Of a stretch of DNA of 64,000 nucleotides, positions 37,416-50,817 are shown piece by piece. The position numbers and the translations under genes were made by a program. The DNA lies in NCBI GenBank assembly GCA_020444545.1, contig JAHLKT010000003.1:372001-436000 (forward strand), in the 5' to 3' direction. Origin of the DNA: Desulfarculaceae bacterium (lineage in GTDB: Bacteria; Desulfobacterota; Desulfarculia; Desulfarculales; Desulfarculaceae). The notes beneath the pieces were generated by a model, which was not told the DNA's origin, did no database searches, and worked only from the letters and a program-made list of their open reading frames with translations. Positions within the stretch are counted from its first letter, which is position 1. Each line of letters begins with the position of its first letter.

Positions 37416-37449
37416 AAAAAAAGCGGGGCCCGGCTCGCACCGGACCCCG
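37416..37449 (-). terminator. Rho-independent terminator at the end of the pxp operon and relic
   Basis: Ten-bp stem (arms 37424-37433 and 37440-37449, one U-G pair), six-nt loop, then C and seven T on the minus strand. It ends the transcript carrying the outer-membrane-protein relic and the operon above it. Confidence 0.9.
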
Positions 37450-37638: not shown

Positions 37639-38727
37639 TCAGTCCGCGAAGTTGAAGCAGGCCAGGGGCTTCTCGGCGATGGCCAGGAGGCACTGGTTGC
37701 AGTCAATGCAGCGGGCGGCCGCATCCCCCGCGTCGCCCAACAGCCTTTGAGGCAGGTCCGGCTCGCTGACCAGGGGGCGGCACAGGCCGGCCAGGTCCGA
37801 GCCCGAGGCCAGCACGCCCTCCATGGCCGCGCGGGTGCGCAGTCCCCCGGTGATGGCCAAAGGCACCCCGCCCACCGCCGCGCGGAAGGCGGCCAGGGCG
37901 GGCAGGAAGTAAGCCTCCGCCTCGCCCACCTGGCGCTTCAAGCGCGCCCGCAGCTTGATCTGGTCCTTTATGCCGCCGCTTATCTCGATGAGCCCGGCCC
38001 CGCCTTGGGCCAACTCGCCCGCCAACCAGGCGTAGTCCTCCTGCCCCGCGCCCTCGGGCAGGAAATCGTCGCAGTTCATCTTCCAGAACACCGGAAAGTC
38101 CTCCCCGGCCGCGCGGCGTATCTCCGCCAGCACCAGCAAGGGGAAGCGGCCCCGGTTCTCGCGGCTGCCGCCCCAGGCGTCGGTGCGCTTATTGATGGCC
38201 GGGGTGAAGAACTGGCTCACCAGATAGCCGTGGGCCCCGTGCACCGCCGCGGCGTCGAAACCGGCCGCGCGCACCCGGGCGGCGGCGCGTCCGAACTCGC
38301 GGGCCAGCTCTCGGATCTCGTCCTCGGCGATGCGGTTCAAATCGAAGCCATGCTCCAGGCTGCCGTAGGAATAGCCCGCCGCGGCCGAGCCCGCATGGTG
38401 CAGCTGCACCGCGCAAAGGGCGCCGGTGCCCTGGGCGTGGATGGCCTCGGCCACCGATGCCAGGCCGGGGATCTGGGCGTCGTCCCAGGCCCCCATCTGG
38501 CCGGCCCAGGCCCGGCCCGCCCGGCTAACCGCCGTGGCCCCGGTGATGATGGTGCCCACCCCTCCCCGCGCCAATTCGGCGTAGAGCAAGGCGAGGGCCT
38601 CCCCCGCCATACCGTCGGGGGAGGCCATGTTTTCCATGGTGGCCGAGCGCAGCAGCCGGTTGGGAGCGACCGGGCCGCCCAGAGCTAGGGGTTGCCCCAG
38701 AGGGCCGGGGTCGGCGGTCGCATTCAT
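37639..38727 (-). CDS. Old-yellow-enzyme-type FMN oxidoreductase (NADH:flavin oxidoreductase family)
   Basis: A 362-aa TIM-barrel flavoenzyme. Start motif NRLLRSATMENMAS, substrate/FMN-binding His pair in VQLHHAGS and AAAVHGAHGYLVSQFFTPAINKRTDAWGGS, FWKMNCDDFLPEG and the phosphate-binding ITGGLRTRAAMEGVLASGSDLAGLCRPL are in place. Near the end CIDCNQCL and a further Cys (PLACFNF) recall the cysteine cluster of the 2,4-dienoyl-CoA reductase branch, but the NAD-binding half of that branch is missing. Last gene of the pxp operon, 2 bp after the biotin carboxylase. It may reduce an unsaturated intermediate of the ring-opening pathway. Confidence 0.88.
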   Translation of the reverse strand: MNATADPGPLGQPLALGGPVAPNRLLRSATMENMASPDGMAGEALALLYAELARGGVGTIITGATAVSRAGRAWAGQMGAWDDAQIPGLASVAEAIHAQGTGALCAVQLHHAGSAAAGYSYGSLEHGFDLNRIAEDEIRELAREFGRAAARVRAAGFDAAAVHGAHGYLVSQFFTPAINKRTDAWGGSRENRGRFPLLVLAEIRRAAGEDFPVFWKMNCDDFLPEGAGQEDYAWLAGELAQGGAGLIEISGGIKDQIKLRARLKRQVGEAEAYFLPALAAFRAAVGGVPLAITGGLRTRAAMEGVLASGSDLAGLCRPLVSEPDLPQRLLGDAGDAAARCIDCNQCLLAIAEKPLACFNFAD

Positions 38728-38729
38728 GC

Positions 38730-40070
38730 TCAGCTCCAGTGCTTTTCAATGAACCCGGTGTCCATGTCGCCTTCCTGGAAAGCGGGATGCTCCAGGATGC
38801 GCAAGTTGGCCGGGATGCTGGTTTTCACGCCCTGGATCTGGAAGTCCTTGAGCGCCTGTATCAAACGGCGGATGGCCGCCGGGCGGTTCTGGTCCCAGGC
38901 CACCACCTTGGCCAGCATGGGGTCGTAGTAAGGCGGCACCACGCAGCCGTCGGCCAGGGCGTGGTCCACCCGGAGGTTCTCGCTCAGCTCGGGCAAGACC
39001 ACCTTCTCGATGGTGCCCGGGCTGGGGAAGAAGGTGTCCGGGTCCTCGGCATACACCCGCGCCTCGATGGCGTGACCCTTGAAGGAGATGTCCTCCTGGC
39101 TCAGGCCCAGGGCCTCGCCCGAGGCGATCTCCAGCTGGCAACGCACGATGTCCACCCCGGTGAGGTACTCGCTCACCGGATGCTCCACCTGGAGCCGCGC
39201 GTTCACTTCCATGAAGTAGTATTCGCCGCCCGCCGCCCGCAGGCCCTCCAGGGTGCCCGCGCCCACGTAACCCATCTTCTTGACGATGGCCACCGCGCTG
39301 GCGAACATCTTTTCGCGGTCCGTTGGCGTGATCACCGGGGAAAGCGCCTCCTCGATGATCTTCTGGTGGCGGCGCTGGATGGAGCACTCGCGCTCGCCCA
39401 GGCACACCACCCGGCCCGCCTGGTCGGCGATGAACTGCACCTCGATGTGCCTCGGTTGGGCCACCACCGTCTCGATGTAGCAGTCCGGGGAGCCGAAGGC
39501 CATGGCCCCGATGGAGCAGGCCCGCTTGAACACCTCGGCCGCCTGGCCGGGCTCGGAGACCATCTCGATGCCCTTGCCGCCGCCGCCCTTGTCCAGCTTG
39601 AGGAACAGGGGGTAGCCGTGTTCCTCGCCAAAGGCCACCACCTCCTCGGGCCCTTGCACCGGCTCCAGGGTGCCGGGGGTGACCGCGGCGCCCACCTCCA
39701 CCGCCAGCTGGCGGGTGTAGCACTTGGAGCTGATGGCCTTGAGCACCTCGGGGGGGGGGCCCACCCAGGTGAGCCCGGCGTCGACCACCGCCTGGGCAAA
39801 GGCCCCGCGCTCGGAGAGGAAGCCGTAGCCCGGATGCACCGAGTCGGCCCCGCTCTTCTTGGCCGCCTCGATCACCGCCTCGATGTTCAGATAGCTCTGG
39901 GCCGGGTTGGCCGGTCCGATGAGCACCGCCTCGTCGGCGGCCTGAGTGAAGGGCGCGCCCGTGTCGGCCTCGGAGTGCACCGCCACGGTGGCGATGCCCA
40001 TCTCCTTGGCCGTGCGGATAATGCGGGGCACGATCTCGCCCCGGTTGGCTATGAGTAGTTTTTTGATCAT
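38730..40070 (-). CDS. accC: Biotin carboxylase subunit
   Basis: A 446-aa ATP-grasp enzyme that carboxylates biotin on its carrier. It begins IKKLLIANRGEIVPRIIRTAKEMGI, has the Gly-rich ATP loop KLDKGGGGKGIEMV, the cation-site HQKIIEEALSP region and the catalytic Arg in MEVNARLQVEHPVSEYLTG. It has normal AccC length. No acetyl-CoA carboxyltransferase genes (accA, accD) are near. The neighbours are a carrier protein, PxpC and PxpB, whose domains occupy the carboxyltransferase position in urea carboxylase. The natural partner here is therefore the PxpBC complex, and the enzyme probably does not serve fatty-acid synthesis. It lies 7 bp after the carrier gene. Confidence 0.94.
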   Translation of the reverse strand: MIKKLLIANRGEIVPRIIRTAKEMGIATVAVHSEADTGAPFTQAADEAVLIGPANPAQSYLNIEAVIEAAKKSGADSVHPGYGFLSERGAFAQAVVDAGLTWVGPPPEVLKAISSKCYTRQLAVEVGAAVTPGTLEPVQGPEEVVAFGEEHGYPLFLKLDKGGGGKGIEMVSEPGQAAEVFKRACSIGAMAFGSPDCYIETVVAQPRHIEVQFIADQAGRVVCLGERECSIQRRHQKIIEEALSPVITPTDREKMFASAVAIVKKMGYVGAGTLEGLRAAGGEYYFMEVNARLQVEHPVSEYLTGVDIVRCQLEIASGEALGLSQEDISFKGHAIEARVYAEDPDTFFPSPGTIEKVVLPELSENLRVDHALADGCVVPPYYDPMLAKVVAWDQNRPAAIRRLIQALKDFQIQGVKTSIPANLRILEHPAFQEGDMDTGFIEKHWS

Positions 40071-40077
40071 GAGGCGC

Positions 40078-40302
40078 CTACTCCGGCACCTCCAGCATGA
40101 CCATGGGATCGCCCACCTGCATCTCGTCCCATTCCTTGGAGATGACCTGGCTCACCTTGCCCGCGAACTCGCTTTTCACCGAGATCTCGGTCTTCATGCA
40201 GTTGATCACGGCCACTTCCTGGCCCTCGGCTACCTCGTCGCCCACGTTGACGACCACCCGGGCGCACAGGCCGGGCATGATGGCGTTGACGCTTTTTTCC
40301 AT
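40078..40302 (-). CDS. Biotin carboxyl carrier protein, minimal
   Basis: A 74-aa protein consisting of only a biotinyl/lipoyl domain. The biotin-accepting Lys37 lies in INCMKTE, where most carriers have AMKM or VMKM, so Cys-Met-Lys-Thr is an unusual but acceptable context. GDEVAEGQEV before it and VGDPMVMLE at the end are the standard barrel strands. It is immediately upstream of the biotin carboxylase and 25 bp after PxpC, completing a split biotin-dependent enzyme. Confidence 0.92.
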   Translation of the reverse strand: MEKSVNAIMPGLCARVVVNVGDEVAEGQEVAVINCMKTEISVKSEFAGKVSQVISKEWDEMQVGDPMVMLEVPE

Positions 40303-40327
40303 GTTCGTATCCTCTCTCTGTCTCGCT

Positions 40328-41311
40328 CTAGGCGAGGGAAGCTTCGCTAAGGAGTTTCTTCTGGGCGGCCCGCTCGGCTATGGCCTCGTCCTGGCTGGAA
40401 AGTTGGAACTGGATGTAGTCCCGGCCCGGCGCGCCCTGGCCCACCTTCCACAGGTCGGCGTTGATCACGTTGAGGGCGCACATGTAGCCGCCCAGGGTGG
40501 GGCCGTCGGCCACCAGCAGGATGGGGGTGTTGCCGCAGATGTTCAGCGCCCCGCGAATGGCGTAGGCGTGGTCGATGATGTTGCTGGGGTGGCTGCCGCC
40601 CACGCCGCCGTCGGTCCGCGCGAAGAACTCGGCGGGCAGCTCCTCCAGGCGGTAGGCCGAGCGGTTGGAGGTGTGCTGGATCTTGGAGACCCGGCTGAAC
40701 AGCAGCTCCATGCCCTGTTCGGTGGCGTAGTCCGGGCTGGTGTTGGGCCCGGGAATGGCCCGGAGCACCCATTGGTTGGTCAGCTCGGGCACCACGCCCT
40801 CGGCCAGCTTGCGCCCGGCCAGGGCGTTCAGGTCGGCCGAAGGCGCGCCGAAGACCACCTCGTCGCCCGGAGTGAGGGGGCGGCCGTCGAAGCCGCCGTA
40901 GGCCCCGAAGATGCAGGTGGACTTGCTGCCCAGATAGGCGGGCACGTCCACGCCGCCGGCCACCGCCACATAGCAGCGGAAGCCCACCGGCCCGATGTGC
41001 AACACCTTGAACTTGTCGCCCGCGCCCACCTTGATCGACTCGTACATGGGCACGGCCTGCCCGTTGATGGTGGGCTGCATGTCCGTGCCGGTGATGGCGA
41101 TGACGTGGTCGTCAGTGAACTCGGCCTCGAAGAAGCCGCCGGTGATCTCCAGGCCCGCCTCGCCGGAGGGGTTGCCCACCAGCACGTTGGCCAGGCCCAG
41201 GGAAACGTTGTCAAAGGCCCCGGAGGCGCTCATGCCCTTGCCCAGATAGCCCAGGCGTCCCGGCCAGTCCTCCACCAGAGTCTCGATGCCGCCGTTGATT
41301 ATTTTCAGCAT
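40328..41311 (-). CDS. pxpC: 5-oxoprolinase subunit C-like (KipA / urea carboxylase AHS2 domain)
   Basis: A 327-aa protein of the PxpC/KipA family. ATG 41311 is chosen because of a GAAGGAG site and the start MLKIINGGIETLVEDWPGRLGYLGKGMSASGAFD, which matches the conserved N-terminus (the family pattern is I-x-x-P-G-x-x-x-T-x-Q-D-x-G-R). GLEITGG, GGVDVPAYLGSKSTCIFGAYGGFDGRPLTPGDEV and the C-terminal PILLVADGPTLGGY follow the family. With PxpB it forms the ATP-dependent part of 5-oxoprolinase, and the same two domains form the carboxyltransferase of urea carboxylase. Located between PxpB (14 bp) and the biotin carrier. Confidence 0.9.
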   Translation of the reverse strand: MLKIINGGIETLVEDWPGRLGYLGKGMSASGAFDNVSLGLANVLVGNPSGEAGLEITGGFFEAEFTDDHVIAITGTDMQPTINGQAVPMYESIKVGAGDKFKVLHIGPVGFRCYVAVAGGVDVPAYLGSKSTCIFGAYGGFDGRPLTPGDEVVFGAPSADLNALAGRKLAEGVVPELTNQWVLRAIPGPNTSPDYATEQGMELLFSRVSKIQHTSNRSAYRLEELPAEFFARTDGGVGGSHPSNIIDHAYAIRGALNICGNTPILLVADGPTLGGYMCALNVINADLWKVGQGAPGRDYIQFQLSSQDEAIAERAAQKKLLSEASLA

Positions 41312-41325
41312 TAGCCTTGCTCCTT

Positions 41326-42312
41326 CTACAGCCTGGGGGCCTTCTTGGTGCCTTCGGCCTGCTTGGCCTTCAGCTCGGCCGCGCCCTTTTGCACCTCCTC
41401 GGAGTTGAACCACTCCAGGTACTCCTTGGCCTTGATCTCACCTTCGTCGATCTCGTAGGTGTAGTCGGTCTTGTCGTGCACGTGGCCGTAGATCTCCACC
41501 ACCTCCTTCTCGCTCACCTCGTGGAAGCGCACCCGGTCGGCGTTGCGGTACAGGAAGGGGCCGTCGGCGAACATGGGGTGCTTGCAAGAGAACTGGAACA
41601 CCGGGATGGTGCGGCCGAAGAGCTGGTAGCCGCCGCCGGTGGGGGTGGTGTAGGTGAACACGCAGGGGCCGCCGATGCCCACCGCGCCCTCGGGGGTCCA
41701 GGTGCGCGGGGGGTTGTACTTGGGCACCACGATGGCGTAGCGCGGGTCCATGGGCCACAGGAAGGCGCCGCCCGGCCAGAAGCCGCCGCCGCTATCGAAC
41801 CAGTCGGTCTTGAGCACCGCCTGCTTGCACTCGTCAACCGTGAGCCCGTTGCACATGGCCATGTATTCCAGGTTGTAGCCGTCGGCGCAGTTGGGCGCGT
41901 CGGGGCGCACCTCCTTCAGGTACCGGGCCACCGACTTTTTGGTCTCGGAGTCCTCAAAGGCGATGGGCAGGTGGATCAGGCGGGAAGGCAGCACCACCTC
42001 GTCGATGCTGGGCAGGGAGTCCTCGGCCTCCTTGACCACGTCGATGAGCGCCTCCACCCCGATCTGCTCGGGGTCGAAGTGCAGCAGGTTGGTGCGGATG
42101 CCGGGCACCGTCTCGATGAGGCCCTTGACCTCCTTGCCCATGATGATGTCGTTCACCGCCAACATGCGGAAGGAGTCCTGCAACAGGGCCCGCTGCTCGC
42201 GGCCGTACTCCACCTGCAGGAAGCCGTCCCCCGCCTGGCGGAAGAGCACCTCCAGGCGCGACGGCGTTTCCGCCATGGTGTCCAGGATGACGTTGAATTT
42301 GCCTTGGCTCAT
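41326..42312 (-). CDS. pxpB: 5-oxoprolinase subunit B-like (KipI / AHS1 domain), long form
   Basis: A 328-aa protein, about 100 residues longer than usual PxpB. The core has the family signatures HLPIAFEDSETKKSV-type strand, GFWPGGAFLWPMDPRYAIVVPK, GAVGIGGPCVFTYTTPTGGGYQLFGRTIPVF and FADGPFLYRNADRVRFHEVSE. The tail is acidic/Lys-rich (KAKEYLEWFNSEEVQKGAAELKA). The N-terminal half includes a stretch resembling the urea-carboxylase AHS1 region. With PxpC it activates the amide oxygen with ATP in the oxoprolinase reaction. Follows the aminotransferase gene by 33 bp. Confidence 0.88.
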   Translation of the reverse strand: MSQGKFNVILDTMAETPSRLEVLFRQAGDGFLQVEYGREQRALLQDSFRMLAVNDIIMGKEVKGLIETVPGIRTNLLHFDPEQIGVEALIDVVKEAEDSLPSIDEVVLPSRLIHLPIAFEDSETKKSVARYLKEVRPDAPNCADGYNLEYMAMCNGLTVDECKQAVLKTDWFDSGGGFWPGGAFLWPMDPRYAIVVPKYNPPRTWTPEGAVGIGGPCVFTYTTPTGGGYQLFGRTIPVFQFSCKHPMFADGPFLYRNADRVRFHEVSEKEVVEIYGHVHDKTDYTYEIDEGEIKAKEYLEWFNSEEVQKGAAELKAKQAEGTKKAPRL

Positions 42313-42345
42313 AGATTCGCCCCCTTTCGGGTTGCTTGTTGCCGC

Positions 42346-43659
42346 TCAGCCCGCGCTGATGGCGGCCAATCCCTTGTCCATTATGTCCAGACCCTCTTCC
42401 AGCTGCTCCTCGCTGATGACCAGGGGCATGAGGGTCCTGATTACGTTGCCGTACTTGCCGCAGGCCAGGAGGATCAGCCCGTGCTCCTGGCACCAGGCGG
42501 TCAGCTTCTTGGTCTGCTCGGTGGCCGGGGCCTTGCTCTGGCGGTCGCTCACCAGCTCCATGGCCATCATGGCCCCCAGGCCGCGCACGTCGCCGATGAT
42601 GGGGTAGCGCTCGGCCATTTCGGTGAAACGCTGGCGCACCCTCTCGCCGATGGCCCGGGCCTTGGCCGCCAGGTCCACCTCCTCGATGAAGTCCAAGACC
42701 GCCAGGGCCGCGGCGCAGGCCACGGGGTTGCCCCCGTAGGTGCCGCCCAGGCCGCCCACGTGGGAGGCCTCCATGATCTCGGCCCGGCCCACCGCGCCCG
42801 CCAGGGGCAGCCCGGCGGCGAGGGACTTGGCCACGGTGGTGATGTCCGGCTCCACCCCGTACTGCTCCATGGCGAAGGTGGTGCCCGTGCGGCACATCCC
42901 GGTCTGCACCTCGTCGGCCACGAAGAGTATGCCGTTGTTGGCGCAGATGTCGGCGATGATCTTGAAGTACTCCGGCGGGGGCGCCACGAAGCCGCCCTCG
43001 CCCAAGACCGGCTCCAGCACCACCGCCGCGGTCTGCTCGGCGGCCACGTGCTCGATGAAGAAGTCCTCCAGGGCATGGGCGCAGGCCACCCCGCAACCCG
43101 GATAGGTCAGGTTGTAGGGGCAGCGGTAGCAGTAGGCATAGGGCATGCGGTAGACCTCGGGCGCGTAGGGCCCGTAGCCGAACTTGTAGGGCTTGACCTT
43201 GCTGGTCATGGTCATGGTCAGCAGGGTCCGGCCGTGGAAGGCGCCCTCGGCCACGATGATGGCCGGACGCTTGGTGTAGTAGCGCGCCGCCTTTACCGCG
43301 TTCTCCACCGCCTCGGCCCCGCTGTTGACCAGCACCGTCTTCTTGGCGAAATCGCCCGGGGTCAGGCGGTTCAGGCGGCGGGCCAGCTCCACGTAGGGCT
43401 CGTACATCACGATGTGGAAGCAGGTGTGCATGTAGTTGGCCGCCTGCTGTTGCACCGCGGCCACCACCTTGTCGTTGCAGTGGCCCACGTTGACCACGCC
43501 GATGCCGCCCACGAAGTCCACGTAGCGCTTGCCCTCGACGTCCCACACCTCGGCGCCCTTGGCCTTGCCGGTGAAAAACGGCGTGGCGTTGAAGGGCCCT
43601 TGGGGCACTTCCCGGCACCGTAGCTCGCCCAGGGCGGCGTTTTGCTGAATATTGCTCAC
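42346..43659 (-). CDS. Class-III PLP aminotransferase (4-aminobutyrate / omega-amino acid type)
   Basis: A 437-aa fold-type I aminotransferase. VNSGAEAVENAVKAARYYTKRPAI, GAFHGRTLLTM, PVLGEGGFVAPP, VADEVQTGMCRTG, and the PLP-binding Lys278 in TTVAKSLAAGLPLAG are present. These motifs match GABA/5-aminovalerate transaminases and close relatives. Its position between pxpA and pxpB, inside the operon, suggests that the amine set free by ring opening is an omega-amino acid (for instance 4-aminobutyrate from 2-pyrrolidinone), which this enzyme would deaminate to a semialdehyde. A two-cysteine segment (YCYRCPYNLTYPGCG) in the middle is typical of a subgroup of these enzymes. Substrate is inferred from context only. 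Confidence 0.9.
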   Translation of the reverse strand: MSNIQQNAALGELRCREVPQGPFNATPFFTGKAKGAEVWDVEGKRYVDFVGGIGVVNVGHCNDKVVAAVQQQAANYMHTCFHIVMYEPYVELARRLNRLTPGDFAKKTVLVNSGAEAVENAVKAARYYTKRPAIIVAEGAFHGRTLLTMTMTSKVKPYKFGYGPYAPEVYRMPYAYCYRCPYNLTYPGCGVACAHALEDFFIEHVAAEQTAAVVLEPVLGEGGFVAPPPEYFKIIADICANNGILFVADEVQTGMCRTGTTFAMEQYGVEPDITTVAKSLAAGLPLAGAVGRAEIMEASHVGGLGGTYGGNPVACAAALAVLDFIEEVDLAAKARAIGERVRQRFTEMAERYPIIGDVRGLGAMMAMELVSDRQSKAPATEQTKKLTAWCQEHGLILLACGKYGNVIRTLMPLVISEEQLEEGLDIMDKGLAAISAG

Positions 43660-43675
43660 GAGAATCCTCCCGCCT

Positions 43676-44428
43676 CTAGAGCTGGGGCGCGACCAGGGTG
43701 CAGCCCGCCCCTTCCAGGGCCCGGCGCAGGGTGGTGATGATCACGTCGGCCCCCTCGGTGTCGCCGTGCACGCACACCGAGCTGCCGGTAATGGAGATCT
43801 CGCTGCCGTCGGTGGCGATGACCTTGCCCTCGGTTACCATGCGCACCACGCGGGCCGCGCCCTGCTCCGGGTCCACCGCGTCGTGGGAGCGGGTGATCAC
43901 CAGGTTGCCCTGGGCGTCGTAGCTCAGGTCGGAGTAGAGCTCGTACACCGTGCGCAAGCCCATCTCTTGGGCCGCCTCGGCGAAGACCCCCACCTTCATT
44001 ATGTAAAGGTACAACTCCGGGTCCAGGTCCTTGGCCGCCGAGCAGATGGCCCGGGCCACCTCGGGGTCCTTGTGGGCCATGCCGTAGAGGCTGCCGTGGG
44101 GTTTCACATGGTGCAGGCGGGTGCCGGCGGCCTCGCAGAAGGCCTTGAGCGCGCCGGCCTGGTACATGGTGTTGTCGTAGATCTCGTCCGGGGTCAGCTT
44201 CATCTCGCGCCGGCCGAAGCCTTGCAGGTCCGGCAGGCCTGGATGGGCCCCCACCGCCACGCCGCGCTCCGCGGCCAGGGCCACGGTCTGGCGCATCACC
44301 GAGGGATCGCCGGCGTGGAAGCCGCAGGCCACGTTGGCGCTGGTTATGTACTGCATGAACGCGGCGTCGTCGCCGAGCTTGTACATGCCGAAGGATTCAC
44401 CCATGTCGGCATTGAGGTCGATGTTCAT
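43676..44428 (-). CDS. pxpA: 5-oxoprolinase subunit A (LamB/YcsF family)
   Basis: A 250-aa protein with the family signatures IDLNADMGESFG, ANVACGFHAGDPSVMRQTV, AHPGLPDLQGFGRR and VKPHGSLYG. In characterised systems PxpA binds and opens the lactam 5-oxoproline once PxpBC has activated it with ATP. It lies 27 bp after the ABC permease and 16 bp before the aminotransferase, so uptake and ring opening are encoded together. Confidence 0.93.
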   Translation of the reverse strand: MNIDLNADMGESFGMYKLGDDAAFMQYITSANVACGFHAGDPSVMRQTVALAAERGVAVGAHPGLPDLQGFGRREMKLTPDEIYDNTMYQAGALKAFCEAAGTRLHHVKPHGSLYGMAHKDPEVARAICSAAKDLDPELYLYIMKVGVFAEAAQEMGLRTVYELYSDLSYDAQGNLVITRSHDAVDPEQGAARVVRMVTEGKVIATDGSEISITGSSVCVHGDTEGADVIITTLRRALEGAGCTLVAPQL

Positions 44429-44455
44429 AACTACTCTCCTACTCCCTCTATCCGT

Positions 44456-45415
44456 TTAACGGCCCTTCATGGAGAGCCGGAACTGGTCCATGACCACCGC
44501 GAAGATGAGCAGGCAGCCCATCACCACCATCTGCAAGTAGGAGCTGATGTTCATCAGGTCCATGCCGTTGCGGATGAGCACGATGAGTATGGCTCCAAAG
44601 ATGGCCCCGATGAGGCTGCCCTCCCCGCCGCGCAGGCTCACCCCTCCGATGACCGCCGCGGCTATGGATTCCAGGGGCAGGTTGGCCCCCAGGTTGGGCT
44701 CGCCCGAGGCCACCCGCGCGGTGAGCATGATGCCCGCGATGCCGGTGAGCACCCCGCAGAGCACGTAGGCCAGGGCGGTGTATTTGCGCACCGCGATGCC
44801 CGACAGGCGGGCCGCCTCGCGGTTGCCGCCCAGGGCATAAAAATACCGGCCCACCCGGGTGCGCGAAAGCAAAAGCCAGATCATGGCGATGATTATCACC
44901 GCCACCACCACCGGCACCGGGAAGCCCCAGATGGTCCCGTGACCCAGAGTTTCATTGAGCTGCTCGGGCAGATTGAAGATGGGCACGCCGCTACTAACCA
45001 ACAGGGCCAGGCCGTGGGCCACCGAGAGCATGCCCAAGGTGACCACGAAGGGCGAGACCCTAAACACCGCGATGGTGATGCCGTTGGCCAGGCCCACCAG
45101 GGTGGCCACCCCGATGCCCACCAGGATGCCCACGATGATGGCCGTGGTGGGGTCGACGATGGAGACCATGACCATGGAGGACACGATGGAGGTCAGGGCC
45201 ACCGAGGAGCCCACCGAGAGGTCGAAGCCCGCGCAGAGGATGGTGAGCATCTGGGCCGCGGTCACGATGGCCAGGTAGGTCGTCTGCCGCCCCACGTTGA
45301 GCAGGTTGGACAGAGACAAAAAGCGGTGCTCGGCCAGGCCGAACAGGATGACCAGGGCCACCAAGAGGAATGGCAGGACCCCGACTTTGATGAATAGTCG
45401 CTTTAGCCAGTTCAA
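44456..45415 (-). CDS. ABC transporter permease (RbsC/BPD_transp_2 family)
   Basis: A 319-aa inner-membrane permease with about nine hydrophobic segments. LCAGFDLSVGSSVALTSIVSSMVM, GLANGITIAVFRVSPFVVTLGMLSVAHGLALL, GRYFYALGGNREAARLSGI and GGVSLRGGEGSLIGAIFGAILIVLIRNGMDLM are the standard RbsC/XylH motifs. The single gene implies a homodimeric channel. It lies 3 bp after the ATPase gene and imports the ligand of the TorT-like binding protein. Confidence 0.94.
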   Translation of the reverse strand: MNWLKRLFIKVGVLPFLLVALVILFGLAEHRFLSLSNLLNVGRQTTYLAIVTAAQMLTILCAGFDLSVGSSVALTSIVSSMVMVSIVDPTTAIIVGILVGIGVATLVGLANGITIAVFRVSPFVVTLGMLSVAHGLALLVSSGVPIFNLPEQLNETLGHGTIWGFPVPVVVAVIIIAMIWLLLSRTRVGRYFYALGGNREAARLSGIAVRKYTALAYVLCGVLTGIAGIMLTARVASGEPNLGANLPLESIAAAVIGGVSLRGGEGSLIGAIFGAILIVLIRNGMDLMNISSYLQMVVMGCLLIFAVVMDQFRLSMKGR

Positions 45416-45418
45416 GGT

Positions 45419-46990
45419 TTATCCCTCGATTGTGGGTGCGCCGACCGGGGCCGCCCCGCTGGGGGGCGCGGACCGCCTCGAATCGCCGTTGCACAGGTTG
45501 GTGAAGTCGTAGCCGAAGCAGGCGCTGAGCACGTCCTCTTCGGTGGCCTGGTGGCCGGGCACCTGCTTGGCCACCCCCCCGGCGTGCATTACCAGGATGT
45601 TGTGGCTCAGATGCAGTACCTCGGGCAGCTCAGAGGAGATGAAGATCACCGCCGCGCCCTTTTCCGCCTGCTCCTTGAGGAACAGGTAGACCTCGCGCTT
45701 GGCCCCCACGTCGATGCCGCAGGAGGCCTCGTCGAAGATGAAGACCTTGATCTCGCGGGTCAGGCCCCGGGAGAGCATCACCTTCTGCTGGTTGCCGCCG
45801 CTCAAATTGACGATGGATTGGTGGATGCGGGCCGGGCGCACGTTCATTTTTTCCACCAGGGCCCGCACCAAGCCTTCTTCGCGCTTCAGGTCGATGAAGC
45901 CCCTTTTCTCTAGCATGGGCACCGCGGCCAGGGTCTGGTTCTCGCGCACGTTGCGGCAGAGCACCAGGCCCTCCTTGTGGCGGTCGGCCGGGAAGTAGAG
46001 CACCCCCTGCTTGAGGCTCTTGCGCGGGGTGGGCTCCTCCACGGCGTAGCCTTCCAGGATGATGCGGCCGCCGGTGATCTGCTCCAGGCCGTAGAGGGCC
46101 CGGCCCACCCGGCTCTTGCCCGCGCCCACCAGACCCGCGATGCCCAGAATCTCACCGGCGCGCACCGAAAAGCTGATGTCGTGCAGGCCGCTGGAGGTGG
46201 TCAGGCCGTCCACCTCCAAGACCACCGGGCCCAGCTCATGCTCGATGACCGGGAAGATTTCTTCGAAGTCGCGCCCGGTCATCAGGGAGATGAGCTTCTG
46301 CTCGTCGGCCTCGGCCATGTCCAGGGTGGCCACGTTCATGCCGTCGCGGAGAACGCTGATGCGGTCGCCCACCTTCTTCAGTTCATCGATGCGGTGGGAG
46401 ATGTAGATCACCCCCACCCCCTCGCCGGTGAGGCGTCTGATGATCTCAAAAAGGCGAGCCACCTCCTTGTCGCTGAGCGAGGCGGTGGGCTCGTCCAGAA
46501 TGAGCACCGACATCTTTTCCTGGAAGGCCTTGGTGATCTCCACCATCTGGCGCTCGGCCCGGGTGAGCTGGCCCACGTTGGCCAGGGGGTCCAGGTCGAA
46601 GCCCAGGTCCTCCAGGGACTCGCGGGCCTTGGCCAACATGCCCGCATTGTCCAACATGCCGCGCTTGGTCATCTCGCGGCCCAAGAAGAGATTCTCCAGC
46701 ACCGTGAGCTGGGGCACCAGGGAGAACTCCTGATACACCGCCGAAACGCCCAGACGGCGGGCGTCGGTGGGGGTTTTCAGGTCCACCTTTTTGCCGCGCA
46801 GGAATATCTCGCCCTGATCCGGGATGTAGGAGCCGGCCAGGATCTTGGTGAGGGTGGACTTGCCCGCGCCGTTCTCGCCGAACAGCACGTGCACCTCTCC
46901 GGCTCTGAGGTCGAAGGACACCTCGTCCAGGGCCTTGACCCCGGGGAAGGTCATGGTGACGCCGGTGGCCGCGAGCAGTGTGTCGGACAT
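45419..46990 (-). CDS. Sugar-type ABC transporter ATPase (RbsA-like, two nucleotide-binding domains)
   Basis: A 523-aa ATPase with two ABC domains. The ATG at 46990 (MSDTLLAATGVTMTFPGVKALD) is preferred over the upstream frame opening at 47044. NBD1 has Walker A GENGAGKST and LTRAERQMVEI, VLILDEPTASLS. NBD2 has the modified Walker A GLVGAGKSRVG, signature NLSGGNQQKVML and FIFDEASCGID, the degenerate second site typical of RbsA/MglA/XylG. Partners are the permease (3 bp) and the binding protein 79 bp upstream. Although the family is sugar-type, the operon context (PxpABC, aminotransferase) suggests a nitrogenous ligand such as a lactam. Confidence 0.94.
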   Translation of the reverse strand: MSDTLLAATGVTMTFPGVKALDEVSFDLRAGEVHVLFGENGAGKSTLTKILAGSYIPDQGEIFLRGKKVDLKTPTDARRLGVSAVYQEFSLVPQLTVLENLFLGREMTKRGMLDNAGMLAKARESLEDLGFDLDPLANVGQLTRAERQMVEITKAFQEKMSVLILDEPTASLSDKEVARLFEIIRRLTGEGVGVIYISHRIDELKKVGDRISVLRDGMNVATLDMAEADEQKLISLMTGRDFEEIFPVIEHELGPVVLEVDGLTTSSGLHDISFSVRAGEILGIAGLVGAGKSRVGRALYGLEQITGGRIILEGYAVEEPTPRKSLKQGVLYFPADRHKEGLVLCRNVRENQTLAAVPMLEKRGFIDLKREEGLVRALVEKMNVRPARIHQSIVNLSGGNQQKVMLSRGLTREIKVFIFDEASCGIDVGAKREVYLFLKEQAEKGAAVIFISSELPEVLHLSHNILVMHAGGVAKQVPGHQATEEDVLSACFGYDFTNLCNGDSRRSAPPSGAAPVGAPTIEG

Positions 46991-47069
46991 GGGTGCTCTT
47001 TTCCAACCATGCCCGGCGGACGCCCGAAGGCGCCCGCCGCGCACGGCGTGGTTTAGGGTTCAGCTAGGC

Positions 47070-48227
47070 TTACTTCTTGGGCTCCACCCTGAACTCGGGC
47101 CGGAAGGAACGGGGCCCGAAGAGCGTGTCATAGGGGTAGTCCGCCATGTTGGCCTTGGTGATGGTGGGGATGATGGGACCGGCGCGGAAGGGGAAGTCCT
47201 TGCCGGGCTTCTCGCCGTTCAAGATGCGCACCATCACGTCCACGGCCATCTGGCCCTGGGTCACGGTTAGGTCCGAGGGAGCCGCCGCCACCAGGCCCTT
47301 GCCGATCTTGTCGTACAGGGGCGGGATGATGTAGGTGGACACGATCTTGACGTCCTTGCGCTTCATCTCGGCCACCGGGCCCACGGCCGCGTCGGCCGCC
47401 ACGGCGTTACCCACCAGGTAGTCGATCTTGGGGAAGGTCTGCAGGGCGTTCTCGATCAGCTTGAGCTGCACGGCCTTGCCGGTGTCGCCCCACTTGACCG
47501 CCAGGATGTTGACCTTGCCGGGGAACTTCTTGATGGCTTCCTTGAAGCCGTCCAGGGTGTCCGGGGCCCAGCCGCTGCCCGCGGGACCGGGCAGGAAGAC
47601 CACGTTGACTTCCTTCTTGCCCTTGGCGTCGCCCACCACGAACTCGCCGGCGTGCACGCCCATGTCATAGAAGGACACCATGGCCTTGGCGGTGATGGCC
47701 GGAGCCTGGATGTCGTTGATTACCTCCACCACCGGGATGCCCTTCTTCACGATCTCCTTCACCACCGGGTCCAGGCCGGTGTAGGAGATGGAGCCCAGGA
47801 TGATGCCGTCCACGCCCTGCTGGGACAGGTTCTCCATCTGGCTAACCTGCTTGGCCAGCTCGGTGTAGCCGCCGGCCGCCACCAGCTTGATGCCCACGCC
47901 CAGGCGCTTGGCCTCGCTGATGATGCCGTAGTCCACCGCCAGCCAGTAGGGGTCTTTCAGGTGAGGGAAGGACACGCCGATGGTGTAGGGCTTGTTGGCC
48001 CGCTTGGGGGGATACCAGGCCTCGACCTTGGGGCCGGTCAGGCTGCCCGAGGGGCGGCCGGCCTTTTTCATCTTGACGTCGTACTTGCCGTAGTAGGCGT
48101 TCACCTTGACCGGCCACCACTGCTTGTACTTGTCGGCCGCCAGGGCGGTGATGCCGCTCATGAGCAGCATGGCCGCGGCCAGCACAGCCACCATTGTCTT
48201 GGGTCCCAGGTTCATCTTCTTGAGCAT
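47070..48227 (-). CDS. TorT-like periplasmic binding protein of the ABC importer
   Basis: A 385-aa protein with a signal peptide (about 1-30, cleaved near ALA-ADK). ATG 48227 has a GGAGGAGAAGG site. The mature protein begins QWWPVKVNAYYGKY and continues with YTIGVSFPHLKDPYWLAVDYGIISEAKRLGVGIKL-type sequence, GGYTELAKQ and GVDGIILGSISYTGLDP. These features are typical of TorT, the TMAO sensor protein, more than of ribose-binding proteins. TorT normally signals to TorS, but no TorS or TorR is here. The following ABC ATPase and permease show that this copy is probably a transport receptor. Ligand unknown. Confidence 0.88.
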   Translation of the reverse strand: MLKKMNLGPKTMVAVLAAAMLLMSGITALAADKYKQWWPVKVNAYYGKYDVKMKKAGRPSGSLTGPKVEAWYPPKRANKPYTIGVSFPHLKDPYWLAVDYGIISEAKRLGVGIKLVAAGGYTELAKQVSQMENLSQQGVDGIILGSISYTGLDPVVKEIVKKGIPVVEVINDIQAPAITAKAMVSFYDMGVHAGEFVVGDAKGKKEVNVVFLPGPAGSGWAPDTLDGFKEAIKKFPGKVNILAVKWGDTGKAVQLKLIENALQTFPKIDYLVGNAVAADAAVGPVAEMKRKDVKIVSTYIIPPLYDKIGKGLVAAAPSDLTVTQGQMAVDVMVRILNGEKPGKDFPFRAGPIIPTITKANMADYPYDTLFGPRSFRPEFRVEPKK

Positions 48228-48307
48228 TTCCTTCTCCTCCGTGAGGTTTATCGACTCGTTCGGCCCACCGGGGCGGGCCGGAAAACGTCGGGGCCCGGAG
48301 CGGCGGA

Positions 48308-48616
48308 TCAGGGCAGGCCGTTCTCCGAACCGTCGTTCTGGATCATCTTGGCGTCTATGCCCCGGATGTTGGCCGGGTAGCCGTTTTCCAAAAGCTCCAG
48401 CACCAAGGGCCGGGCGCTCTCGCCCGCAAAGGAGAAGACGGCCCAGTTCTCCCCGGCCTCGTCCACGATGGTGCCTTGTTGATTGATGCGGGTGCCGCGC
48501 TCTTCCAGGAACCGGCGGATGCGATCGGGCAGCTCCGGGTCCTCGATGCGTGAAACCAGGTGGGAATAGCGGTGGTCGAGGTATTTCTCGATTTCTATGG
48601 GCAACACGCGGCTCAT
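48308..48616 (-). CDS. Small acidic protein of unknown function at the head of the pxp operon
   Basis: I do not recognise this product. The frame is open from 48802. Two ATG codons are plausible, 48637 and 48616; 48616 is shown because a -24/-12-like element overlaps 48637. Common sequence: VLPIEIEKYLDHRYSHLVSRIEDPEL, RIRRFLEERGTRINQQGTIVD, GENWAVFSFAGESARPLVLELLENGY, ANIRGIDAKMIQNDG. It appears soluble and alpha/beta, about 100 aa. It lies 80 bp upstream of the binding-protein gene and 3' of the sigma-54 activator gene, so it may be co-induced with the transporter. Confidence 0.55.
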   Translation of the reverse strand: MSRVLPIEIEKYLDHRYSHLVSRIEDPELPDRIRRFLEERGTRINQQGTIVDEAGENWAVFSFAGESARPLVLELLENGYPANIRGIDAKMIQNDGSENGLP

Positions 48617-48630
48617 GGGCCTGGATAGTT

Positions 48631-48646
48631 CCAACATCCGTGCCAA
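48631..48646 (-). promoter_or_regulatory. Candidate sigma-54 (-24/-12) promoter of the pxp operon
   Basis: On the minus strand TTGGCACGGATGTTGG: matches YTGGCACGRNNNTTGC except the final base (G for C). The next gene upstream encodes a PAS sigma-54 activator. The predicted transcript start (about 48619) is only about 3 nt before the ATG at 48616, which would make that gene nearly leaderless; this weakens either the promoter or the start call. Confidence 0.5.
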
Positions 48647-48970: not shown

Positions 48971-50716
48971 TTATGAATCGTTTTCAGCCTCCTGAAGACG
49001 CCTGGCAATGGTGGATTGGCTCACTCCCAGGTGCTGGGCCGCCTTGCGCTGGGTGCCCAGGCGCTTGAGCGCCTCCTGGATCAGTTCCAGCTCCACCTGG
49101 CGCAGGCGCTGGCGCAGGTCGAAGCCCTGGGACCAGTCCAAAGTCGGCACGTTTGCCGGCAACTCGCGCACCTCGGAGGGCAGGTCCTCGGGCCGGATGT
49201 CCTCCTCCGGGCTTAGGATCATCACCCGCTCGATGATGTTATCCAACTCGCGCACGTTGCCGGGGTAGTTGTAGTTGAGCAGCAGGGTGCGGGCCTCGGG
49301 GGTCAGATCCTTGAAGATCTGGTTCTCGCTGCTCACCCGCCGGAGAAAGATGCCCATGAGGAACAAGATGTCGCTGGGCCGCTCGCGCAGGGGCGGCACC
49401 GACAGGGGCACCACGTTGAAGCGGTAGTAGAGATCCTCGCGGAAGCGCCCCGCGTCCACCTCCTGGGCCAGGTTCTTGTTGGTAGCCGCGATCACCCGGG
49501 TGTCCACCTCGATGGCTTGGCCGCCGCCCACCCGGACCACCCGGCGCTCCTCGATGAACCGGAGCAGCTTCACCTGATGCTCCAGGGGCAGCTCGGCGAT
49601 CTCGTCCAAAAACAAGGTGCCGCCTTGGGCCATTTCCACCAGGCCGGCCTTGCCCCTCCGGCTGGCCCCGGTGAAGGCGCCCTTGGCATAGCCGAAGAGC
49701 TCGGATTCGAACAATGAGCCGGGGATGGCAGCGCAGTCCACCCGCACGAAGGGCCCGGCCGCCCGGGTGGACTTGTTGTGGATCAGGCGGGCCAACATGC
49801 TCTTGCCCGCCCCGGACTCGCCGCTGATGAGCACCGTGGACTGGGCCGGGGCCACGCGCAGGGCCTTTTCGTAGACCTGCTTCATGGCCCGGCTGCGGCA
49901 CATGAACTCGCCATCCACGATCTCGGCCGACTGGGGCTCGAACAGGCTGGAGCGGAACTGCTGGAGTTTGGCCTCGCTTTCCTCCAGCTGGCGGCGCATG
50001 CGGTCCAAGAGGGTGATGTCGCGGTCGTTGATCACCACGAAGGCGATCTCGCCCTCGGCGTCGTAGATGGGGCTGCCCGTGGCCAGGATCTTCTTGCCCG
50101 ACTTGAGGTGCTGCACCATGGTGAAGGTGGTCTTGCGCTTGAGCACCTCCAGGGTCACCGAGTCGTTGAAGTTGCCGTCGCGCAGAAGATCGCCCACGAA
50201 GTGGCCCTCGACCTTGTGGCGGGGCAGGCCCACCATGCGCAGGGCGGCCCGGTTCACCTTGACCACCACCCCGTGGCTGTCGGTGATCCACAGGCCGTCG
50301 AAAGACGACTCCATAATGGCTTCCAGATAAGAGGCCGAGGCGCGGTAGGGCTCGGGGAACAGGGCCCCCTGCTCGCTGTCCCAGGGATCGCCCATCATGA
50401 TGAGCACCCAGGCCACCTCGCCCTCGGCGAACACGGGCAAATAGTTGAGCAACAGGAAGTGGTGGCCGTGGCGCAGGCGCGCGCCCAGCAGGGGCGCGCC
50501 GCCCTCGAAGATGGCCTGGGCCTGGCGCCAGGCGTCGGGCTCCACCACCTCGATGGGCCGCCCGGCCAGGTCGCCGGCCTCGTGCTGGAGCATGCGCCCG
50601 GCCGCGGAGTTGGCATAGGAGATCAGGCCCCGGGGGTCGATGGCCAGCACCCCCACCCGCATCTGGTCGAACTGGGCGGTCTTTAACAGGGCGAGATCCG
50701 GGGCCGGGCGAGGCAT
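48971..50716 (-). CDS. Sigma-54-dependent activator with two PAS domains
   Basis: A 581-aa enhancer-binding protein. ATG 50716 is chosen over 50737 because of an AGGAG site 8 nt upstream. PAS1 (about 12-110), PAS2 (about 128-235, [30 protein letters not shown] and [19 protein letters not shown]), a short coiled linker, the AAA+ domain (about 270-510) with Walker A GESGAGKS (299-306) and GAFTGA (346-351), and a C-terminal Fis-type HTH ([20 protein letters not shown]). This is the layout of RocR-like and related ligand-sensing activators. It is transcribed towards the pxp operon and separated from it by a terminator, palindromes and a -24/-12-like site. It likely senses the imported compound or a product. 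Confidence 0.93.
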
Positions 50717-50817
50717 GGATTTTCTCCTTGGGGTCACTAGGTTAAGACAACCGCATGGCCCGCCTCATGTCAATGGGCTATTGGGGGCCCAGTCCCGGCC
50801 GCCGCCCCCCGAAAGGA

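Follow-up and report, generated by a model that had tools for sequence, protein, structure and literature searches.

A candidate cyclic-amide catabolic operon built around a split biotin enzyme and PxpA in a Desulfarculaceae bacterium

Gene content and control elements of the locus

The window analyzed here is a 64,000-nucleotide stretch of the genome of a Desulfarculaceae bacterium. It contains a ten-gene operon on the minus strand (Table 1), placed there by an initial annotation, and Pfam or NCBIfam models confirmed each of the ten genes. The positions given in that annotation stand, but three starts were moved, those of the binding protein, the ATPase and CT_A_B; the shorter CT_A_B start is our own reading of the sequence and is best regarded as probable. 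Further, the interval originally assigned to the operon (37639-48616) takes in the operon genes but leaves outside it a sigma-54 activator gene that belongs to the unit.

Table 1. Features of the operon and its flanks (window positions), with related genes of the host genome
Feature	Position	Strand	Basis
TorT-like periplasmic binding protein	47070..48227	minus	Pfam/NCBIfam; start set by conservation
ABC ATPase, two ATP-binding domains (sugar-type CUT2)	45419..46990	minus	Pfam/NCBIfam; start set by conservation
ABC permease (BPD_transp_2)	44456..45415	minus	Pfam/NCBIfam
PxpA/LamB-YcsF hydrolase, predicted ring-opening subunit	43676..44428	minus	Pfam/NCBIfam
Class III aminotransferase, GABA transaminase type	42346..43659	minus	TIGR00700, closest structures, PLP lysine motif
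Carboxyltransferase subunit C/D (CT_C_D; PxpB-like, closer to urea carboxylase)	41326..42312	minus	Pfam/NCBIfam
Carboxyltransferase subunit A/B (CT_A_B; PxpC-like), signature GGVGGSHPSN...DGPTLGG	40328..41311	minus	Pfam/NCBIfam, alignment, tree
Biotin carboxyl carrier (BCCP), 74 aa, CMKTE with K37	40078..40302	minus	Domain match and motif
Biotin carboxylase (BC), core ATP-grasp/catalytic motifs	38730..40070	minus	Pfam/NCBIfam and motifs
OYE-type flavin reductase, accessory gene	37639..38727	minus	Pfam/NCBIfam and motifs
PAS-AAA+-Fis sigma-54 activator, probable regulator	48971..50737	minus	Domains; adjacency in same-genus and other loci
Sigma-54 -24/-12-like promoter, TGGCACGGATGTTGGA, one mismatch	48630..48645	minus	Pattern match and conserved position
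Strong terminator-like hairpin, 11 pairs (9 G-C) and T-run, after OYE gene	37424..37449	minus	
Single BC, two biotinyl domains and AccD-AccA-like fusion (host genome)	C3:410733-412070, C6:82989-83432, C1:143378-145292		

The TGGCACG-type sigma-54 site sits between the activator gene and the operon. A site of this type occurs at the matching position in all three same-genus loci examined, and the sites of three loci (L050, L083 and L087) have no mismatch. Within the window alone the sigma-54 pattern is not enriched, and matches to a sigma-70 promoter are no commoner than chance. The closest NCBIfam likeness of the activator is to PrdR, the proline reductase regulator; it falls under the cut-off and is only suggestive as a functional clue. 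The genes downstream of the operon (USP, CBS-domain and TauE) look unrelated to it, and a search of viral contigs gave no match.

The aminotransferase exceeds the GABA transaminase cut-off (TIGR00700, 555.2 bits vs. 506.65), has the PLP lysine motif, and finds its closest solved structures in GabT. In the OYE-type protein we recognized an HGAHGYL motif and, at the C terminus, a cluster of Cys residues of the kind usually carried by 4Fe-4S relatives of OYE; the chain stops just past CxxCxxC...C, as in the 2,4-dienoyl-CoA reductase relatives that are devoid of the C-terminal FAD domain. The best solved relative of the binding protein is 4yhs, which is of no use as a clue to the ligand.

A urea-carboxylase-type carboxyltransferase, conserved with PxpA and biotin proteins

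The two carboxyltransferase (CT) subunits had been equated with PxpB and PxpC. They are indeed homologs of those proteins, but both fall well short of the equivalog cut-offs (PxpB, TIGR00370, 39.3 bits vs. 145.55; PxpC, NF045499, 165.2 bits vs. 500) and score higher against the urea carboxylase model. The cut-off of that model (TIGR02712, 1303.85) is not reached by any single chain, as the domains are spread over four genes; the best single part attains 441.9 bits. For both CT subunits, the best match among solved structures is the urea carboxylase of K. lactis (3VA7). Further, CT_A_B carries the urea carboxylase signature GGxxGxHPSN...DGPSxGG, and the segment PSN...DGP[ST]xGG is common to urea carboxylase and biotin-linked CT_A_B proteins in all members aligned over the region. 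The PSN...DGP signature is absent from E. coli PxpC, from both canonical copies in the host genome and from about 18 further PxpC matches. In a CT_A_B tree, canonical PxpC is set apart at 100/97 and urea carboxylase lies amid the biotin-linked rows as a clade of its own; the corresponding PxpA tree separates the biotin-linked PxpA clade from canonical PxpA at 99/96. In both trees the canonical sample is small, with few rows, and has some long branches. By these sequence comparisons, the operon's “PxpB/PxpC” pair is non-canonical and falls, within its family, on the side of urea carboxylase.

A few CT_A_B sequences fall between the groups. Those of L054, L013 and L022 combine traits of canonical PxpC with traits of the biotin-linked type, with PSN present and DGP variable, and are possible evolutionary intermediates; sequences of intermediate character include the second copy in L054 and those of G005 and G010, in which linkage to BC is absent or uncertain.

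The 74-residue carrier contains the MK lysine expected of a biotinyl domain; this lysine is conserved and is the candidate site of biotinylation. The BC has the anticipated motifs; GGGGKG is present in its sequence, though one Gly-loop pattern went unmatched.

To survey the distribution of this gene set, we scanned species genomes with a CT_C_D alignment, which yielded 191 confirmed relatives; the best 80 by similarity to the operon CT were retained, so that all proportions are biased accordingly. Among these, 36 loci outside the SAR11 set were well flanked (at least 18 kb). PxpA and CT_C_D occur in all 36, BCCP in 34 (two loci have no detected carrier), BC in 32 (four have none near the core), GabT in 22 and the OYE gene in 10. 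The five-gene core of PxpA, CT_C_D, CT_A_B, BCCP and BC recurs, in varying order, across several phyla. Its hosts are Desulfobacterota, Firmicutes (Acetobacterium bakii, Propionispira, Pelotomaculum and Dethiobacter), Rokubacteria, one Thaumarchaeota genome, SAR11-type Alphaproteobacteria and Gammaproteobacteria. The SAR11-type loci (L109-L136) have the core in two divergent gene groups, with their own binding protein and the carrier motif EVMKSEV. Named relatives in the scan agree with a Desulfarculaceae-like host.

The order of the genes varies from group to group, so that selection, and not simple inheritance, seems to maintain the association. Same-genus genomes share the operon, with CT_C_D identities of 83-88%; this retention and the recurrence of the core across phyla indicate that the operon is not a chance assembly. 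Thus, the proposal that a split counterpart of urea carboxylase is joined here to PxpA and a GABA-type aminotransferase is borne out, and the arrangement extends far beyond the host genome. The parts, their co-conservation, the type of the CT, the carrier and BC motifs and the promoter match are all supported at the level of sequence.

The biotin proteins are not uniformly present. Most loci that have no BC nearby still have a carrier; divergent carriers were recovered by a motif scan. In two cases (L088 in G405 and L076 in G409), a biotin carrier accompanies PxpA and the two CT subunits, and a search of the genome found no BC whatever; either another carboxyl donor serves these systems or BC is dispensable there. 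Genes for biotin ligase (BirA-type) are found in five related loci.

Predicted pathway and alternative readings

We consider it probable, on the sequence evidence, that the operon serves the breakdown of a small cyclic amide and is centered on a split biotin-dependent lactam carboxylase-hydrolase. The adjacent activator would turn the operon on via the sigma-54 promoter, and the ABC system would take up the cyclic amide. With ATP and bicarbonate, BC would carboxylate the biotin of the carrier, and the CT_C_D/CT_A_B pair would transfer the CO2 onto the nitrogen of the lactam, just as urea is carboxylated by urea carboxylase. The N-carboxy-lactam, thus activated, would be hydrolyzed by PxpA, and the resulting carbamate would shed CO2 to give an omega-amino acid. 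This product could then be converted to a semialdehyde by the GABA-type aminotransferase, to be oxidized or reduced by enzymes encoded at the same locus in other genomes. We infer both that the parts constitute one joint enzyme and that the steps follow this order. The role of the OYE protein is a guess; it may saturate an unsaturated ring beforehand.

The surroundings of related loci bear on the substrate. Their neighbors encode aldehyde ferredoxin oxidoreductase (AOR) in 11 cases, Fe-alcohol dehydrogenase in 5 and glutamate dehydrogenase in 4, which fits a route that turns an omega-amino acid into its semialdehyde and this in turn into an acid or an alcohol. Genes resembling CapAB lie beside the core in L070 (of the window's genus), L077, L085 and L087; caprolactamase is their best family, yet they score under its cut-off. 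HyuA/HyuB-type subunits are absent from the window operon and were found only beside related loci. The lactam substrate put forward in the initial annotation is thus favored by the CapAB-like neighbors and by a fungal precedent discussed below, whereas the identity of the ring is a matter of inference. The leading candidates are 2-pyrrolidinone and delta-valerolactam. Conversion of 2-pyrrolidinone to GABA is the single likeliest pair, a tentative choice that is somewhat short of an even bet; delta-valerolactam and 5-aminovalerate would come next. Neither the aminotransferase nor the Fe-dehydrogenase families fix the ring size. At the thaumarchaeal locus L101, neighboring genes for an acyl-CoA dehydrogenase and a CoA-transferase hint at glutarate, though no cut-off was reached.

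Other readings of the operon must be weighed. The split enzyme could act on urea or on a urea-like compound or cyclic ureide (a hydantoin, dihydropyrimidine or guanidine derivative), with PxpA in place of allophanate hydrolase and a beta-alanine-type product passing to the aminotransferase. The good scores of CT and BC against the urea carboxylase model would suit such a role, a reductase of the OYE type could act ahead of a dihydropyrimidine-like step, and hydantoinases are also found among relatives of the HyuAB family. However, the operon encodes neither an allophanate hydrolase nor a ureidase, the urea-carboxylase rows cluster separately, the CapAB-like neighbors match caprolactamase best, and the aminotransferase clears the GABA transaminase cut-off; we judge this reading unlikely. 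We find it quite improbable that the operon is one for 5-oxoprolinase (or D-pyroglutamate), with biotin replacing or adding to the assumed phosphorylation. The operon PxpA does pass the NCBIfam PxpA subfamily model (NF003814, 325.6 bits vs. a cut-off of 226), but the CT subunits miss their equivalog cut-offs, and glutamate would need no GABA-type aminotransferase. Further, the host genome has two other PxpABC sets, with no BC or BCCP nearby, so that 5-oxoproline is already covered.

The BC and carrier might instead be general parts of acetyl-CoA carboxylase that lie by chance in the operon of a phosphorylation-driven, ATP-dependent lactamase. No BC other than that of the operon was detected in the host genome, which has two biotinyl domains and, on C6, a fused AccD-AccA-type transferase with no BC of its own; sharing of the BC with acetyl-CoA carboxylase is therefore possible. 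Against a purely general role, BC and BCCP keep company with CT and PxpA across phyla and in varied orders, even where other BCs exist (G411 and G410), and the CT bears the urea carboxylase signature. Further, in a genome of the same genus (G008) we found neither a BC nor the operon, which argues against a strict need for a BC. We regard this chance association as the least probable of the three alternatives, and very unlikely.

We thus retain the biotin-dependent lactam carboxylase-hydrolase as the preferred reading. With rather less assurance, we lean toward the broader view that the operon typifies a widespread, uncharacterized class of biotin-dependent lactamases, comprising a separate BC, a carrier, a urea-carboxylase-type CT and a dedicated PxpA subfamily, that would act by N-carboxylation. 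As judged from the distribution of the genes, the class would span anaerobic bacteria, Rokubacteria and Thaumarchaeota of soils, and SAR11. If correct, this proposal would add a new kind of substrate to those of prokaryotic biotin enzymes. It would also mean that a gene set which NCBI models divide between the names 5-oxoprolinase and acetyl-CoA carboxylase encodes one lactam-catabolic enzyme in many genomes, and it would offer a molecular basis for the loss of lactams from the surface ocean and from anoxic sediments.

Relationship to known systems

A literature search returned nothing relevant on a biotin-dependent PxpABC or on anaerobic, biotin-linked lactam degradation, which is no proof of absence; a survey from 2011 pointed to split genes for urea-carboxylase CT that had not been studied (PMC3199775). 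The operon shares with PxpABC 5-oxoprolinase a PxpA and homologs of CT_C_D and CT_A_B. It differs in that the canonical loci examined, those of the host genome and of E. coli, have no carrier or BC nearby, and in that both its CT and its PxpA branch apart from the canonical forms. The phosphorylation step of canonical PxpBC has been described as assumed (PMC13274462), and our results raise the question of whether canonical PxpBC is mechanistically related to the biotin-type CT. In this regard, the listing of PDB entry 9yx5, which came up with the operon's CT_A_B and BC, combines mycobacterial PxpB/PxpC homologs with mycobacterial AccA3 (BC-BCCP), which suggests a contact between PxpB/PxpC-type subunits and a biotin carboxylase. 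Unlike those of the operon, the subunits in 9yx5 do not have the PSN...DGP signature, and no PxpA is listed with them; the entry hints that canonical-type PxpBC may also touch biotin carboxylase.

Urea carboxylase (K. lactis 3VA7; TIGR02712) has the same BC, CT_A_B, CT_C_D and biotin carrier, with PSN...DGP in the CT, but the operon's chains are separate, include PxpA and no allophanate hydrolase, and belong to another clade. The caprolactamase CapAB likewise opens a lactam at the expense of ATP as the initial catabolic step (PMC8453981), and its homologs flank four related loci, but it is biotin-free and belongs to an unrelated protein family.

The nearest precedent for the operon is the lamA/lamB system of Aspergillus nidulans. 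The lactam in that system is 2-pyrrolidinone, and LamA is urea-carboxylase-like. Its genes for lactam catabolism share a regulator, AmdR, with the GABA transaminase gene gatA (Katz and Hynes 1989, cited in PMC8016842). In Trichoderma, genes for urea carboxylase, LamB and an NADPH dehydrogenase are clustered (PMC8675399). These fungal loci temper the initial view of the operon as a new, or at least uncharacterized, assembly. The operon pairs a LamB homolog with a urea-carboxylase-like partner and may in this resemble the A. nidulans system; LamB itself belongs to, and gives its name to, the Pfam family of PxpA/YcsF, and lactam use, predicted in the case of the operon, is tied in both to a GABA transaminase. 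In contrast to its fungal counterpart, the operon is prokaryotic, has its carboxylase divided among four separate proteins, and adds an importer, a sigma-54 activator and an OYE-type reductase.
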